Assembly: GCF_000332315.1 (NCBI RefSeq)
Contig: NZ_KB235941.1
Location: 548,359 to 612,358, forward strand
Direction: 5' to 3'
DNA: 64,000 nt
Origin: Prochlorothrix hollandica PCC 9006 = CALU 1027
Lineage (GTDB): Bacteria > Cyanobacteriota > Cyanobacteriia > Prochlorotrichales > Prochlorotrichaceae
Part shown: in pieces, positions 1 through 46,417 of the stretch
How positions within the stretch are numbered: the stretch's first letter is position 1
How the letters are laid out: each line of letters opens with the position of its first letter
Position numbers and translations under genes: made by a program
The notes under the pieces: model-generated
Told to the model about the DNA's origin: nothing
What the model saw: the letters and a program-made list of their open reading frames with translations, nothing else
Databases searched by the model: none

Positions 1-553
1 AGGCGGTCAGCCTCTCCCCGTACCCTTTCTCGCAGACTCCTTCCGGCAACTTCGCCCTCGTCTTTTCCCCACAGTGGGGGCACTCCAACTGATGCAGGCG
101 ATGTTCTTCAATTCTCACCAACACGGGCGGCAACTCTACCACTTGGTGCCGCTGGGGGGTCGCGTCTTCCCCTGTCAACTCACTCCCACAACACCGGCAT
201 TGATTCGGGTAATGCTCCTGCACGACTTCACAGCGCTCTACTGGATAAAACCCTCTCCCTTTACCCTCATGACCTTTCTGGCCCCCACGCTGACGCTCAC
301 TCTTGGCACGGCTCTCTTTCTTTTTCCCCCGAAATCCATCTTGGGACGGGGGCTTGGACGAATTCTCTGAGGTCTGAGACGACTGCTCTTCGAGACGGGC
401 TAGACGCTCCTCTAGTCCCTTCAGGTGCTTTTTGGCTTGCTCCAACTCTGCCAACAGCAGACTGACCGATGCTTTGACACAGGCCGGGGTCTGCTCCCAG
501 GCTTCGATGGGCACAGGTATGGGGGGACAGATGGCTGGCTCGGATTGACTCAT
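1..553 (-). CDS. IS66-family transposase, N-terminal part (partial)
   Basis: Reading the minus strand from ATG at 553 gives 184 codons without a stop up to the window edge. The protein starts MSQSEPAICPP and has a leucine-rich helix (residues about 25-60). The stretch SENSSKPPSQDG followed by QRGGQKGHEGKGRG is the hallmark of IS66 TnpC N-termini. A zinc-binding region follows, with CRCCGSEL and CPHCGEK. In this family these parts precede the DDE catalytic domain, which would lie beyond the left edge. TnpA/TnpB accessory genes of complete IS66 elements are not present between the start codon and the right terminus, so this would be a TnpC-only type. Confidence 0.85.
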   Translation of the reverse strand, partial: MSQSEPAICPPIPVPIEAWEQTPACVKASVSLLLAELEQAKKHLKGLEERLARLEEQSSQTSENSSKPPSQDGFRGKKKESRAKSERQRGGQKGHEGKGRGFYPVERCEVVQEHYPNQCRCCGSELTGEDATPQRHQVVELPPVLVRIEEHRLHQLECPHCGEKTRAKLPEGVCEKGYGERLTA

Positions 554-680: not shown

Positions 681-1070
681 TTAATCCACTCTGCCTAATC
701 CAATATCTTCAGGCTCAAACTCATACTCTAAAACTTGATGGCTATTATCAGATCTTCGACGATTAACTTTAACTGTAAGTGGTTTACGAACAATAATTTC
801 GTCACCTTGGACTACTAAAGTGCCATCAGCTAGCCATAACATTGCCTGTTTTAATCCGCGATTTAGACCAGTTTCATATGCATGTAAAATTTTTATGTCT
901 GTAAGATCACTAATAAAATCAACTGTTTCTTGAAAATCTTCACTTGGATATTTAGTGCTGGGTAATGCAATACCCAATGACTTTTCTATTAACCGTTTTG
1001 CTTTGCGATATGTTGCACTAGCGGCTTGCATACCTTGGTTAATTTTGTATCTATAATTATGTGATAGCAT
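681..1070 (-). CDS. Conserved-looking protein of unknown function, last gene of the kinase-vWA-PP2C operon
   Basis: This is a 129-aa soluble protein without signal peptide or membrane segment. I do not recognise the family. It has a basic, Ala/Lys-rich N-terminal half (YRKAKRLIEKSLGIALPS) and a beta-rich C-terminal half (GTLVVQGDEIIVRKPLTVKVNRR) that could be a small barrel. It starts 7 bp after the phosphatase stop codon, on the same strand, so it is almost certainly co-transcribed and probably translationally coupled. It shares the AT-rich composition of the operon. Its position suggests a partner or target of the phospho-signalling triad, but this is only inference from context. Confidence 0.75.
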   Translation of the reverse strand: MLSHNYRYKINQGMQAASATYRKAKRLIEKSLGIALPSTKYPSEDFQETVDFISDLTDIKILHAYETGLNRGLKQAMLWLADGTLVVQGDEIIVRKPLTVKVNRRRSDNSHQVLEYEFEPEDIGLGRVD

Positions 1071-1077
1071 GAATTAA

Positions 1078-2430
1078 TTATCGGTTGGATTGAAAAGCAA
1101 GTGCAGCAAAAGACTTGTCATCACCTGTTGTCTTAATCCAGTACTCTGAATCAGACAGAAAATCATGTAAATCCTGGTACAACAACTCTCCTATTCTTAA
1201 AGAATCTAGAAGTTTTGATATTGCCGGAGCAATACGTTTACCGTCGGAACTCATTAATTTTTCTGCCGCTCCATCACTTAAGCTGCAAAATCCTCTCACA
1301 TCATCCATGTCTACGAGTCCATATTGAATTTGTTCTTCTGAAAGATTCTCTGATAGAAAGCTAGTCTGGTTTGAGAATTCTCCTTTATTCATTGTTCCCA
1401 ATAGATCAGTTGATTTCATCCTTTGGACTATAATGGGACTATCTCCAACTCTGAGCCAAAAACTTTTTTTTGTTCCTACAGTGACTATGGATAAAGTACA
1501 TTGAAAGCTTGACAGTTTATCATTTTTGGATTCTGCTTCCTGTTGTAATACTTGCATAGCATACTCTATAATATCCATTGCATAGTTTTTTAGACTATCT
1601 TTATTATAGGTCTTGTCAACATCTAAAATCTCTGAATTGACTTGTCTTCGTTCAGCTATAAAATGGCTGAGCTTTCTGACAACTGCATTTGAACCAAAAT
1701 GGGATAACTTACAACTCCCCGCACCGTCAGAAACTAGTATGATTGGCCTGTCTAAGATAGTTGCTAACGCTGTATCTTGGCACGGTACCGCTGGCTTTGA
1801 TTTTAGGTGTGAAGCACCTACAACATAGTCAGATATACCAATCCAGTTCCAGCTTTCTGAACTATAAGGATATTCTTCTATACTTAACTTTGGAGGATCC
1901 ACATAGTAATAATAATCGCTAGGGATTGGCGAAGTATTTTTCTGAATATCGGAAGTGTTAAGGCTAATAGGGTTGAGTGTAGCTGGTAAGCCACTCGGTG
2001 AAATAATTAATGGTTTACTATGGTCAGGCTCATCTTTATAAAAATTTTGAGATGTAGTTTGACTCTTTTTATTAGTTGTCGTTGCTTTTGATTTTTGCGC
2101 ATTTTTTGGTGGGATTTGCTTTTCTTTTAAACGCTGAATATACGCTACACACTCCTTAGGTATATCATCAATTTTAGAGATGCTACGAACTTCTGTCTCA
2201 TAATAAATATCAGATCCTGGTTTAGATATCTTGATGATAGCAGGATTGGCTGCTGGCCATTTTTTAATTACGTTATCATACTCCTCTTTATTCAGCTTTA
2301 CTTTTCTTTCTGCCATAACTGCCTCACTGCCTTGATCCTCATATGCTGTATTTAATTCAAGATGTAGTAGCTTTTTAAAATCAAGAAAAATCTTTGTCAA
2401 ACAATTTTTGATTTTTGAACTTAACATCAA
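1078..2430 (-). CDS. PP2C-family Ser/Thr protein phosphatase of a TerY-P-like triad
   Basis: The protein has 450 aa. The first 190 residues or so are a lysine-rich region without a recognised domain, ending in a low-complexity Ser/Thr linker. The PP2C domain starts near SDYVVGASHLKSK. Metal-binding and catalytic motifs are visible: the Asp in LVSDGAGSCKLSHFGS, LRVGDSPIIV, the Asp in CSLSDGAAEKL, and the final GDDKSFAALAF. The enzyme should remove phosphate from Ser/Thr, probably reversing the kinase encoded two genes upstream. Its ATG overlaps the stop codon of the vWA gene by 4 bp (2427-2430), so the two are translationally coupled. Confidence 0.88.
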   Translation of the reverse strand: MMLSSKIKNCLTKIFLDFKKLLHLELNTAYEDQGSEAVMAERKVKLNKEEYDNVIKKWPAANPAIIKISKPGSDIYYETEVRSISKIDDIPKECVAYIQRLKEKQIPPKNAQKSKATTTNKKSQTTSQNFYKDEPDHSKPLIISPSGLPATLNPISLNTSDIQKNTSPIPSDYYYYVDPPKLSIEEYPYSSESWNWIGISDYVVGASHLKSKPAVPCQDTALATILDRPIILVSDGAGSCKLSHFGSNAVVRKLSHFIAERRQVNSEILDVDKTYNKDSLKNYAMDIIEYAMQVLQQEAESKNDKLSSFQCTLSIVTVGTKKSFWLRVGDSPIIVQRMKSTDLLGTMNKGEFSNQTSFLSENLSEEQIQYGLVDMDDVRGFCSLSDGAAEKLMSSDGKRIAPAISKLLDSLRIGELLYQDLHDFLSDSEYWIKTTGDDKSFAALAFQSNR

Positions 2431-3113
2431 AAGTTATCCTCCTCTAAAGCTTCCCACCCATCTGTAGATTGAGTTACAATATATTTCATCCCCGGTGTGG
2501 ATTTTGTAACTACTTCTGTCATACTTTGAGATAACCAAGTAAAAAATTCGCTGAATTTCACACCATCAAGACGTTTAGGTTCTGAACCATCTGCACAGAA
2601 CTCAGAGAGAAGATCGAGATTACACTTCTTGCCAATACCAATCGCAATCACAACTATTTTTTTCGAGTTTGCTAAGTCTTTTAGCTTCTTTGAAGCAGCT
2701 TTATATGTATCTGTTGGAGCACCATCAGTCATAAGTACAATCCATGGTTGATAATAAGATACCCCTGTAGATTTATACATTTTTTTGCGAGCATCTAGTT
2801 CAATGATTGCTTGTGTTACAGCTTCACCCATAGGCGTATTACCAGAGGTTTCTAAAACAGGTACTTTAGCTTCTTGAATTGGCTGGATCGGCAAGATTGT
2901 TTTGACATTCCCCCCAAAAGTAATTACACCAAGATCCACTGAAAAGGATGCAAAATCATCCTCTAATACTGAATCAATAAACTGTTCAACACCTCGATTT
3001 AGTTCATCAATGGGTGTTCCATGCATACTACCGCTTACGTCGAGTATTAGCATACATGCACATCTAGGAGATGGATTGTCAATCAAGTCATCTGAACTTA
3101 TATTGATAGGCAT
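2427..3113 (-). CDS. von Willebrand factor A domain protein, TerY-like
   Basis: The protein is a 228-aa cytoplasmic vWA domain covering almost the whole length. The metal-ion-dependent adhesion site is intact: DVSGSMHG near residue 26, Thr in SGNTPMGEAV, and Asp in VLMTDGAPTDT. The vWA domain normally binds a protein partner through a divalent metal. Kinase, vWA and PP2C genes side by side are the arrangement called the TerY-P triad in published comparative work on tellurite/stress systems. It lies 56 bp downstream of the kinase gene and overlaps the phosphatase gene by 4 bp. The start is at 3113, a typical vWA N-terminus (MPINISSDDLIDNPSPRCAC). Confidence 0.88.
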   Translation of the reverse strand: MPINISSDDLIDNPSPRCACMLILDVSGSMHGTPIDELNRGVEQFIDSVLEDDFASFSVDLGVITFGGNVKTILPIQPIQEAKVPVLETSGNTPMGEAVTQAIIELDARKKMYKSTGVSYYQPWIVLMTDGAPTDTYKAASKKLKDLANSKKIVVIAIGIGKKCNLDLLSEFCADGSEPKRLDGVKFSEFFTWLSQSMTEVVTKSTPGMKYIVTQSTDGWEALEEDNF

Positions 3114-3169
3114 TATAAGTACCTCATTCTAGTTGGATACATTTGTTAGAGTTTACCTGAGAATAATAT

Positions 3170-4144
3170 TTATTCCTCTCTAGGTTTTGGGAACTTAGGA
3201 TAGACTTCATTTGTAAAGTAATCACTCTTAATGTTAGAGAGATATTGCTGTAGCCCTCTCCTCCATTCATCTAAAGATGCACGACTTTCGGGATTTGATG
3301 CTCCTTCCTTAAAAGTTTGCATAAAAAGACCTTTTATATTAAAGGATAGATGGCTCCATAAATTATACCAGTTACCTTGGGGGACGGCACCATCACGGCC
3401 AGGTGCTGATCCTCCAGGCCCATATGGAAAACGACCATTTTCCAGATTTTCTACAGGATTTCCACCTCCAATATTATCATAAGGGTGACGACCAAACATA
3501 AAGCATTGAAATATTAAGATTGCTAGAGAAAAGCAATCACTTTCCTTGGTTCTTATTATATATTTAAAGTCTTTGCCATGGTGTTCTAAAGGTGTCATTT
3601 CTGGCCTTCCTACAGGGCATGGATAATCATGTATTTGATAGCTATCAGCATCAATGAGTGATATTTTCCATGTTTTTGGATTACATAAAATATTTTCTAG
3701 ATTAATATCACCCAAATAAATATCTAATTCGTGGAGTTTACTTATAGTATCAACAAGACTTATCATGAGAATGATCATATTCTCTCTGGTTATATCAGGG
3801 AATTTCTTCTCGTATAACTTTGGATGTGCGAGATACTTTAAAGGTATTCCACACATCTTTTTCATTGCATAACCCAAGTATGATTTATCTTGACTATATA
3901 CTGCTACTTGAGGCCAGGATACATTTGTCTGCTTTATGCTACCTTTCATTTTAATTTGAGTTTCTAACTTTTTAACCAAGTTTTCTTCTTCTTCTTTGAG
4001 TCTCTCAGAGTGAAATATTTTCACTAAAAAAGAGCTTCCTTCTAGCTCATATACATTACCTTGACCTCCCGATCCAATTATTTCTCCTAAAACCTTGGGT
4101 TTACTGTTGTAGTCATACACTACATCGCCCTTTGAATACGTCAT
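3170..4144 (-). CDS. Ser/Thr protein kinase of a TerY-P-like triad
   Basis: The 324-aa protein is the first gene of the minus-strand operon. A glycine-rich loop GEIIGSGGQGNVYEL is followed by the ATP-binding lysine in FLVKIFHSE. The catalytic loop reads LGDINLENIL, with Asp and Asn kept but the usual HR lost. The DFG position reads LIDADSYQ, so the metal-binding Asp is present. SDCFSLAILIFQCFMFGRHPYD matches the F-helix region. No zinc ribbon or membrane segment follows the kinase domain. A good ribosome-binding site, AGGAGA, lies about 8 bases before the ATG (plus-strand 4150-4157). Such kinases usually phosphorylate partners of the operon. Composition is AT-rich compared with the rest of the window. 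Confidence 0.88.
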   Translation of the reverse strand: MTYSKGDVVYDYNSKPKVLGEIIGSGGQGNVYELEGSSFLVKIFHSERLKEEEENLVKKLETQIKMKGSIKQTNVSWPQVAVYSQDKSYLGYAMKKMCGIPLKYLAHPKLYEKKFPDITRENMIILMISLVDTISKLHELDIYLGDINLENILCNPKTWKISLIDADSYQIHDYPCPVGRPEMTPLEHHGKDFKYIIRTKESDCFSLAILIFQCFMFGRHPYDNIGGGNPVENLENGRFPYGPGGSAPGRDGAVPQGNWYNLWSHLSFNIKGLFMQTFKEGASNPESRASLDEWRRGLQQYLSNIKSDYFTNEVYPKFPKPREE

Positions 4145-4269: not shown

Positions 4270-4372
4270 TACAGCAGTCCTAAATGAGTCGTGTGGTGTG
4301 CCCCCTCCGGGGGCACACCACACCAAGGGTTTCAGCGATCGAGATCCTTACAACTGATTTAGGGTTGCTGTA
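4270..4372. mobile_element. 103-bp TA-flanked miniature element, copy A
   Basis: Bounded by TA on both sides, with inverted ends TACAGCAGTCCTAAAT and ATTTAGGGTTGCTGTA. The middle is a strong hairpin, GTGTGGTGTGCCCCC TCC GGGGGCACACCACAC. Near-identical full copies are at 5979, 13193 and 46315, with altered copies at 9759 and 27326. TA as target suggests mobilisation by an IS630/Tc1-mariner-type transposase, none of which is in the window. This copy sits 126 bp upstream of the kinase start and inside the 3' end of the ORF at 4359-4652. Confidence 0.85.
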
Positions 4373-5978: not shown

Positions 5979-6081
5979 TACAGCAACCCCAAATCAGTTA
6001 TAAGGATCTCGACGGCTGAAACTCTTGGTGTGGCGTGCCCCCTCCGGGGGCACACCACACGACCCATTTAGGACTGCTGTA
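5979..6081. mobile_element. 103-bp TA-flanked miniature element, copy B, forming the pyrC leader
   Basis: Full-length copy in the opposite orientation to copy A. Its last base is the A of the pyrC ATG: the right end reads GGACTGCTGT followed by ATG. The only Shine-Dalgarno-like sequence of pyrC, TAGGA (6069-6073), belongs to the inverted end of the element. The internal hairpin (about 6028-6060, one mismatch in a 15-bp stem) ends 20 bases before the start codon. Confidence 0.85.
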
Positions 6082-12866: not shown

Positions 12867-13354
12867 TCATTTCTCTTCAGTCTGTTTTATTGCCTTCGAT
12901 ACACTTAGCTTTGCTATTTCTTCAGGTTCTGTCAATCCAATCTTTTTTCTGGCTTGTGTAATATAGATACATGCTGTAGCAGATGCTACAAATTTTCCAA
13001 ATATTCTTTCAAATGTTAAAAAGGAATATGAGTTCATGTATGACTCTGGGTCAATGGTAGCAAGAAGAAAAGAGAGAGCGATTCGTGAGGTTGCGCCCGT
13101 AACAACAGGAACTAATGTTTTTAGCCGCCAACAACTATAAATCCACCCACCAGGTAGTAAGAGCCAGTACATGGCGTGATTGCCACACCAGCTACAGCAA
13201 CCCTAAATCAGTTGTAAGGATCTCGATGGCTGAAACCCTTGGTGTGGTGTGCCCCCTCCGGGGGCACACCACACGACCCATTTAGGACTGCTGTACTACC
13301 TCTACGAATATCTATTTCTTTATATTTATCTGTATCTAGTTCTGGCTTTAACAT
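12867..13354 (-). pseudogene. Small membrane protein gene split by the 103-bp element
   Basis: The present open frame starts only at 13172 (MYWLLLPGGW, 101 aa). Upstream of the element, ATG 13354 opens MLKPELDTDKYKEIDIRRGS. Removing the element with one TA joins the two parts in frame through SSWCGNHAMYWLL, giving a continuous 128-aa protein with two hydrophobic segments and a charged tail ending IKQTEEK. With the element in place the upstream part would run into it and stop. Function unknown. A shortened product from 13172 might still be made. Confidence 0.7.
13193..13295. mobile_element. 103-bp TA-flanked miniature element, copy D
   Basis: Full-length copy with perfect central hairpin, same orientation as copy B. 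The empty target would be GGTAGTAGCTGG on the minus strand, with TA as the duplicated dinucleotide. It interrupts the coding frame at 12867-13354. Confidence 0.88.
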
Positions 13355-46314: not shown

Positions 46315-46417
46315 TACAGCAGTCCTAAATGGGTCGTGTGGTGTGCCCCCTCCGGGGGCACACCACACCAAGGGTTTCAGCTATCGAGATGCCTACAACT
46401 GATTTAGGGTTGCTGTA
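46315..46417. mobile_element. 103-bp TA-flanked miniature element, copy F
   Basis: Full-length copy in the same orientation as copy A, with perfect central hairpin. Its right end is 29 bp from the TATAAT box at 46447 in the adhesin leader. Confidence 0.88.

Follow-up and report, generated by a model that had tools for sequence, protein, structure and literature searches.

A TerY-P system, in which a vWA protein, a PP2C phosphatase and a Ser/Thr kinase are encoded in one operon, is reported to protect against T7-like phages (PMC7699616; PMC11090510). According to the summary in PMC11090510, TerY-P is also involved in tellurite resistance and has been hypothesised to be a switch that senses metal; the same paper describes its kinase as ending in a zinc ribbon, with an OB-fold instead in the version that acts against phages. 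In Escherichia coli, PphC dephosphorylates the autophosphorylating kinase YegI, according to a passage of PMC13232886 that cites Rajagopalan et al.; no condition inducing yegI or pphC expression was found (PMC13232886). Here, we describe a related operon of the cyanobacterium Prochlorothrix hollandica PCC 9006 = CALU 1027, in which such a triad is followed by a fourth gene encoding a protein of 129 amino acids (aa). The operon lies within a stretch of 64,000 nucleotides (the window; contig NZ_KB235941.1, positions 548,359 to 612,358), to which all coordinates given without a locus label refer.

We know of no physiological substrate or output established for the TerY-P or the YegI-PphC-YegL systems. 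A vWA-associated kinase and a PP2C phosphatase with a dedicated phosphorylated partner are found in the threonine phosphorylation pathway PpkA-PppA-Fha of type VI secretion, where the partner is an FHA protein and the genes belong to a secretion cluster. Unlike in this pathway, neither an FHA domain nor secretion genes are seen in the window operon. Its four genes may constitute a horizontally spread signalling cassette of the TerY-P-like or Yeg type, with the 129-aa protein as its dedicated partner, a reading that the sequence comparisons leave about evenly poised.

The four-gene operon and its TerY-P-like triad

The operon runs in one direction on the minus strand (681-4144), in the order kinase, vWA, PP2C and 129-aa protein gene. 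An open reading frame (ORF) check placed all four genes where a sequence-only reading of the window had put them, and Pfam matches at curated-threshold scores confirmed the first three. The GC content of the operon is 0.36 (GC3 0.19-0.28) versus 0.57 for the remainder of the window, which bears out the AT-rich island described in that reading.

The kinase gene (3170..4144) encodes a YegI/TerY-P-like Ser/Thr kinase of 324 aa (Pkinase, E 1.6e-8). Its catalytic residues K42, D146, N151 and D165 are invariant in an alignment of homologues, the catalytic loop is of the GD type (LGDINLENIL) and not HRD, and DAD replaces DFG. The vWA gene (2427..3113) encodes a YegL/TerY-like protein of 228 aa (VWA, E 1.1e-11), which matches the PADLOC TerY profile weakly (E 0.002). 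As the sequence-only reading had it, the metal ion-dependent adhesion site (MIDAS) is intact: the DVSGS motif is present, and D25, S27, S29, T93 and D130 are invariant in comparison with five homologues including YegL. The PP2C gene (1078..2427) encodes a phosphatase of 449 aa (PP2C_2, E 1.8e-31) whose acidic positions and GD motifs are invariant in the homologue alignment. An N-terminal extension of about 190 aa (1858..2427), consisting of a small conserved region and a linker, precedes the catalytic part. It is common to the cyanobacterial clade (window versus genome G433, E 4e-11; versus G447, E 0.013) and absent from E. coli PphC and from a Photobacterium PP2C.

The PP2C start is most likely ATG 2427, because a Shine-Dalgarno sequence (GAGGAGG) lies just upstream of it. 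This start would give a TGATG junction with an overlap of 1 bp with the vWA gene, instead of the 4 bp claimed before, which correspond to an upstream TTG start at 2430 (450 aa). The gap of 7 bp between the PP2C and the 129-aa gene stands.

All three triad proteins have counterparts in E. coli: YegL is 39% identical to the window vWA (E 3e-53), YegI 27% to the kinase (E 4e-25) and PphC (YegK) 26% to the PP2C (E 2e-11). The gene order differs, being yegL-pphC-[yegJ]-yegI, and YegI has a long C-terminal part, whereas the window kinase has no tail. Indeed, neither a C-terminal zinc ribbon nor an OB-fold tail was found in the window kinase, and no CxxC motif occurs in the kinases of the window, G433, G438 and G447. 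Since it thereby departs from the kinase described in PMC11090510, the set would be labelled more accurately a TerY-P-like or Yeg-type triad. The earlier assignment to the TerY-P triad thus holds for the likeness and fails in the strict sense; the window operon further differs by its conserved fourth protein. TerY-P triads include the anti-phage system of Gao et al. (2020) and modules in CoCoNuTs; no CoCoNuT genes were seen adjoining the operon in the window.

Outside cyanobacteria, the closest relatives found are encoded together on plasmid pCECT9189-1 of Photobacterium toruni (L069), with identities of 55% for the vWA, 39% for the kinase and 32% for the PP2C. This set shares the short kinase without a tail, but the order is vWA-PP2C-kinase, the PP2C lacks the extension and no homologue of the small protein is present. 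In plasmid-borne triads of Lysinibacillus (L071:5179-10179) and Paenarthrobacter (L073:5101-9019), the kinase has a PIN-like domain at its N terminus and zinc-ribbon-like cysteines at its C terminus. The fourth gene of the Lysinibacillus operon has a weak DnaJ match and was rejected as a homologue of the 129-aa gene, to which it is unrelated.

Conservation and distribution of the 129-aa protein

The product of the fourth gene (681..1070) was unrecognised in the sequence-only reading, and profile searches agree: no Pfam, NCBIfam or PADLOC match was obtained, which includes the EAD, Trypco, EACC1, FHA, toxin and enzyme profiles of these collections. A comparison with the PDB gave no match (best E 0.071), and PHROGs gave only hits with E of at least 0.017. 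Searches of plasmids and phages, even with the G433 protein as query (E <= 1), and of IMG/VR gave no relative.

Homologues were found in other cyanobacteria. A search of 386 cyanobacterial genomes returned one real homologue besides the window copy, in genome G125 (48% identity, E 1.1e-30). A profile of these two sequences, run against all 218 genomes of the family to which G125 belongs, recovered two more, in G433 and G438. Further families searched with the 129-aa profile yielded no homologue, while the same profile recovered the window's own copy. In total, four copies were found in up to 658 distinct cyanobacterial genomes. Four other candidates were discarded and scored near or below significance with the two-row profile: the L003 frame is broken by six in-frame stops, the L004 and L005 matches cover only short parts of frames of 888 and 1020 aa, and the match in L006 falls within SecA.

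Identities of the window protein to its three homologues are 47-50%. The motifs AASATYRK, YP.EDFQ, AY..GL.RG and W.ADGT are invariant, and the start M-[FL]-S is kept in all four copies. The invariant residues include S18, T20, Y21, T39, Y41, Y65, T84 and Y116, which are candidate phosphorylation sites. Among G125, G433 and G438 the dN/dS of the gene is 0.12-0.21, similar to that of the triad genes (0.12-0.19, G433 versus G438). Because of these three homologues, the low dN/dS (about 0.2) and the conserved start, the reading frame is, judged by comparison, a real gene under selection and no chance ORF; its product represents a new protein family.

G433 and G438 both carry complete four-gene operons, with order and strand as in the window (identities of 53-54% for the kinase, 62-63% for the vWA, 37-38% for the PP2C and 48-50% for the small protein). 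Their PP2Cs share the N-terminal extension of the window type. In G125 an intact 129-aa gene lies directly behind a PP2C 3' end that matches residues 387-449 (E 1.4e-11). In all four copies, therefore, the 129-aa gene is located directly downstream of a PP2C of this subtype, on the same strand, and none was found away from such a PP2C in the genomes searched. Homologues of the protein thus exist and do not lie mostly apart from such triads, so the outcome that the sequence-only reading named as refuting did not occur. The linkage of the gene to the triad is old, as far as sequence divergence can tell. G125 itself (L007:8684-9288) is an unusual case: an intact small gene shows purifying selection (dN about 0.076 and dS about 0.48 on its branch, a ratio near 0.16 from three-taxon differences), and the triad is reduced to the PP2C 3' end.

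Searching these 218 genomes in reverse, with the kinase as query, revealed orthologous triads in G447 and G406 (L091, L092), which follow the window in their order of kinase, vWA and extended PP2C; the G447 kinase is 53-54% identical to that of the window. The 129-aa gene is missing from these two of the five orthologous triads. In the 218-genome family the small gene occurs in three genomes, the orthologous kinase in four and both in two (hypergeometric p 8e-4); the third small-gene genome is G125 with its PP2C remnant. In a tree of kinase and vWA sequences, a single cyanobacterial clade with full support contains the window, G433/G438 and G447/G406. The order inside this clade is weakly supported (60), so a single gain followed by loss and a gain inside the clade are not separable. 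As the G447 and G406 triads are without it, the 129-aa gene is, by its distribution, the mark of a triad sub-lineage, subtype-specific and not universal. The earlier suggestion of a new component is consequently upheld as to conservation behind this PP2C subtype, within the limits of one sub-lineage. On this basis it appears better supported than the sequence-only reading allowed, and a role as target or effector can, as before, only be suggested.

In both G447 (L091:11054-13223) and G406 (L092:4259-5012) a caspase-domain gene on the opposite strand meets the PP2C gene; in G447 it encodes a caspase-GUN4 protein. G406 is decayed, with a split kinase and with the genes for PP2C and caspase truncated into each other. 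Also on the opposite strand, downstream of both triads, lies an additional gene of 122-123 aa with no Pfam match, unrelated to the 129-aa gene; the 123-aa gene of G447 was considered as a divergent copy and rejected (hhalign probability 0.1%). Upstream of the G447 triad, a protein of 1711 aa with 13 WD40 repeats is encoded.

Genomic surroundings

The G438 operon adjoins, in divergent orientation, an Hma-like island (L080:1881-5422 and L089:12224-18953) comprising DUF499/HmaC (E 2.6e-95), DUF7680, an HmaB-like methylase, GmrSD and an SNF2/PLD helicase. The G433 operon is situated near a type ISP restriction enzyme (restriction-modification) and EAD1-CHAT genes.

In the window, an IS66-family transposase gene, present with its 5' part (1..553, minus strand; DUF6444 and zf-IS66, E 6.7e-8), neighbours the operon and lies outside the system. 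It had been described as truncated. A scaffold gap of exactly 100 N (-99 to 0 of the window; L008 10260-10359) cuts the gene just before base 1, so that the sequence simply runs into the gap; a truncation is not demonstrated, nor can a connection with the island be assessed. IS66 was also considered as the vehicle of the island, but its GC content (0.58) is host-like, unlike that of the operon, and the gap blocks a test. A 29-nt palindrome, GTGGTGTGCCCCCTCCGGGGGCACACCAC, occurs in four copies in the window (4293-4321, 6030-6058, 13244-13272 and 46338-46366), with none expected in shuffled sequences. It appears to be a hairpin repeat that is dispersed in this genome.

Possible roles of the 129-aa protein

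In the proposed cassette, kinase and PP2C would reversibly control the phosphorylation of at least one protein, and the vWA protein could serve as a scaffold or sensor that depends on metal. The 129-aa protein would most likely be an adaptor or substrate that couples this switch to its output, by physical interaction, the output probably being stress response or anti-phage defence. A narrower version, in which the protein founds a new family and, as substrate adaptor or effector, provides the dedicated output under phosphorylation control for a TerY-P-like defence cassette that spread horizontally in cyanobacteria, is put forward with considerable reserve. Several observations weigh against such a partnership. 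The triad can evidently stand alone, as the small-gene search found no 129-aa copy in G447 and G406 and the E. coli triad has none; conversely, the gene is kept in G125 without the triad, neither a kinase nor a vWA match being found next to it. A single-sequence AlphaFold2 model gave no fold (pLDDT 45), and the neighbours of the operon in the window are housekeeping genes, none of them related to defence. Because of the latter, any link of the operon to defence would rest on its relatives in G433 and G438. It is indeed a real possibility, if short of an even one, that the cassette serves ordinary stress signalling of the metal, envelope or tellurite type and not phage defence. The tellurite role and metal-sensing hypothesis of TerY-P (PMC11090510) and the lack of a known inducing condition for yegI/pphC (PMC13232886) agree with this, as do the housekeeping neighbours, whereas the patchy, AT-rich and mobile-looking distribution and the defence-island neighbours of the relatives do not.

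The 129-aa protein might also be an effector with growth-stopping or toxic output, held off by the switch and released on a trigger. The caspase-domain gene at the same place beside the sister triads G447 and G406, and the PIN-like domains on the Lysinibacillus and Paenarthrobacter kinases, point to variable effectors near such triads. We nevertheless regard this as unlikely: the protein matches no toxin or enzyme family, and an intact gene under purifying selection in G125 would be unexpected for a toxin restrained by the triad. A free-standing toxin is less likely than an adaptor or substrate on the same ground, the gene being intact in G125 where its triad is missing. A similarly low probability is assigned to the protein being a regulatory or structural subunit of PP2C, for example one that binds the N-terminal extension, rather than a substrate. 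The position of the gene, always directly behind PP2C, the PP2C 3' end as the sole part of the triad left beside it in G125, and the clade-specific extension would all fit a subunit; yet the PP2Cs of G447 and G406 are extended and have no small gene, and adjacency does not identify which partner the 129-aa protein binds. That the gene hitch-hikes with the triad by descent, with an independent function, seems quite improbable. Its intact state in G125 without a complete triad and the triads devoid of it are compatible with this view, but in up to 658 genomes every copy found adjoins a PP2C of the subtype, and the linkage persists between distant lineages (48-50% identity).

Under the cassette reading with a dedicated partner, the 129-aa protein, kept beside one triad sub-lineage, is a concrete candidate for the missing substrate or output of these systems, and it is small enough for direct tests. 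Should it be the phosphorylation-controlled output, no dedicated substrate of a TerY-P-type switch would have been identified before it.

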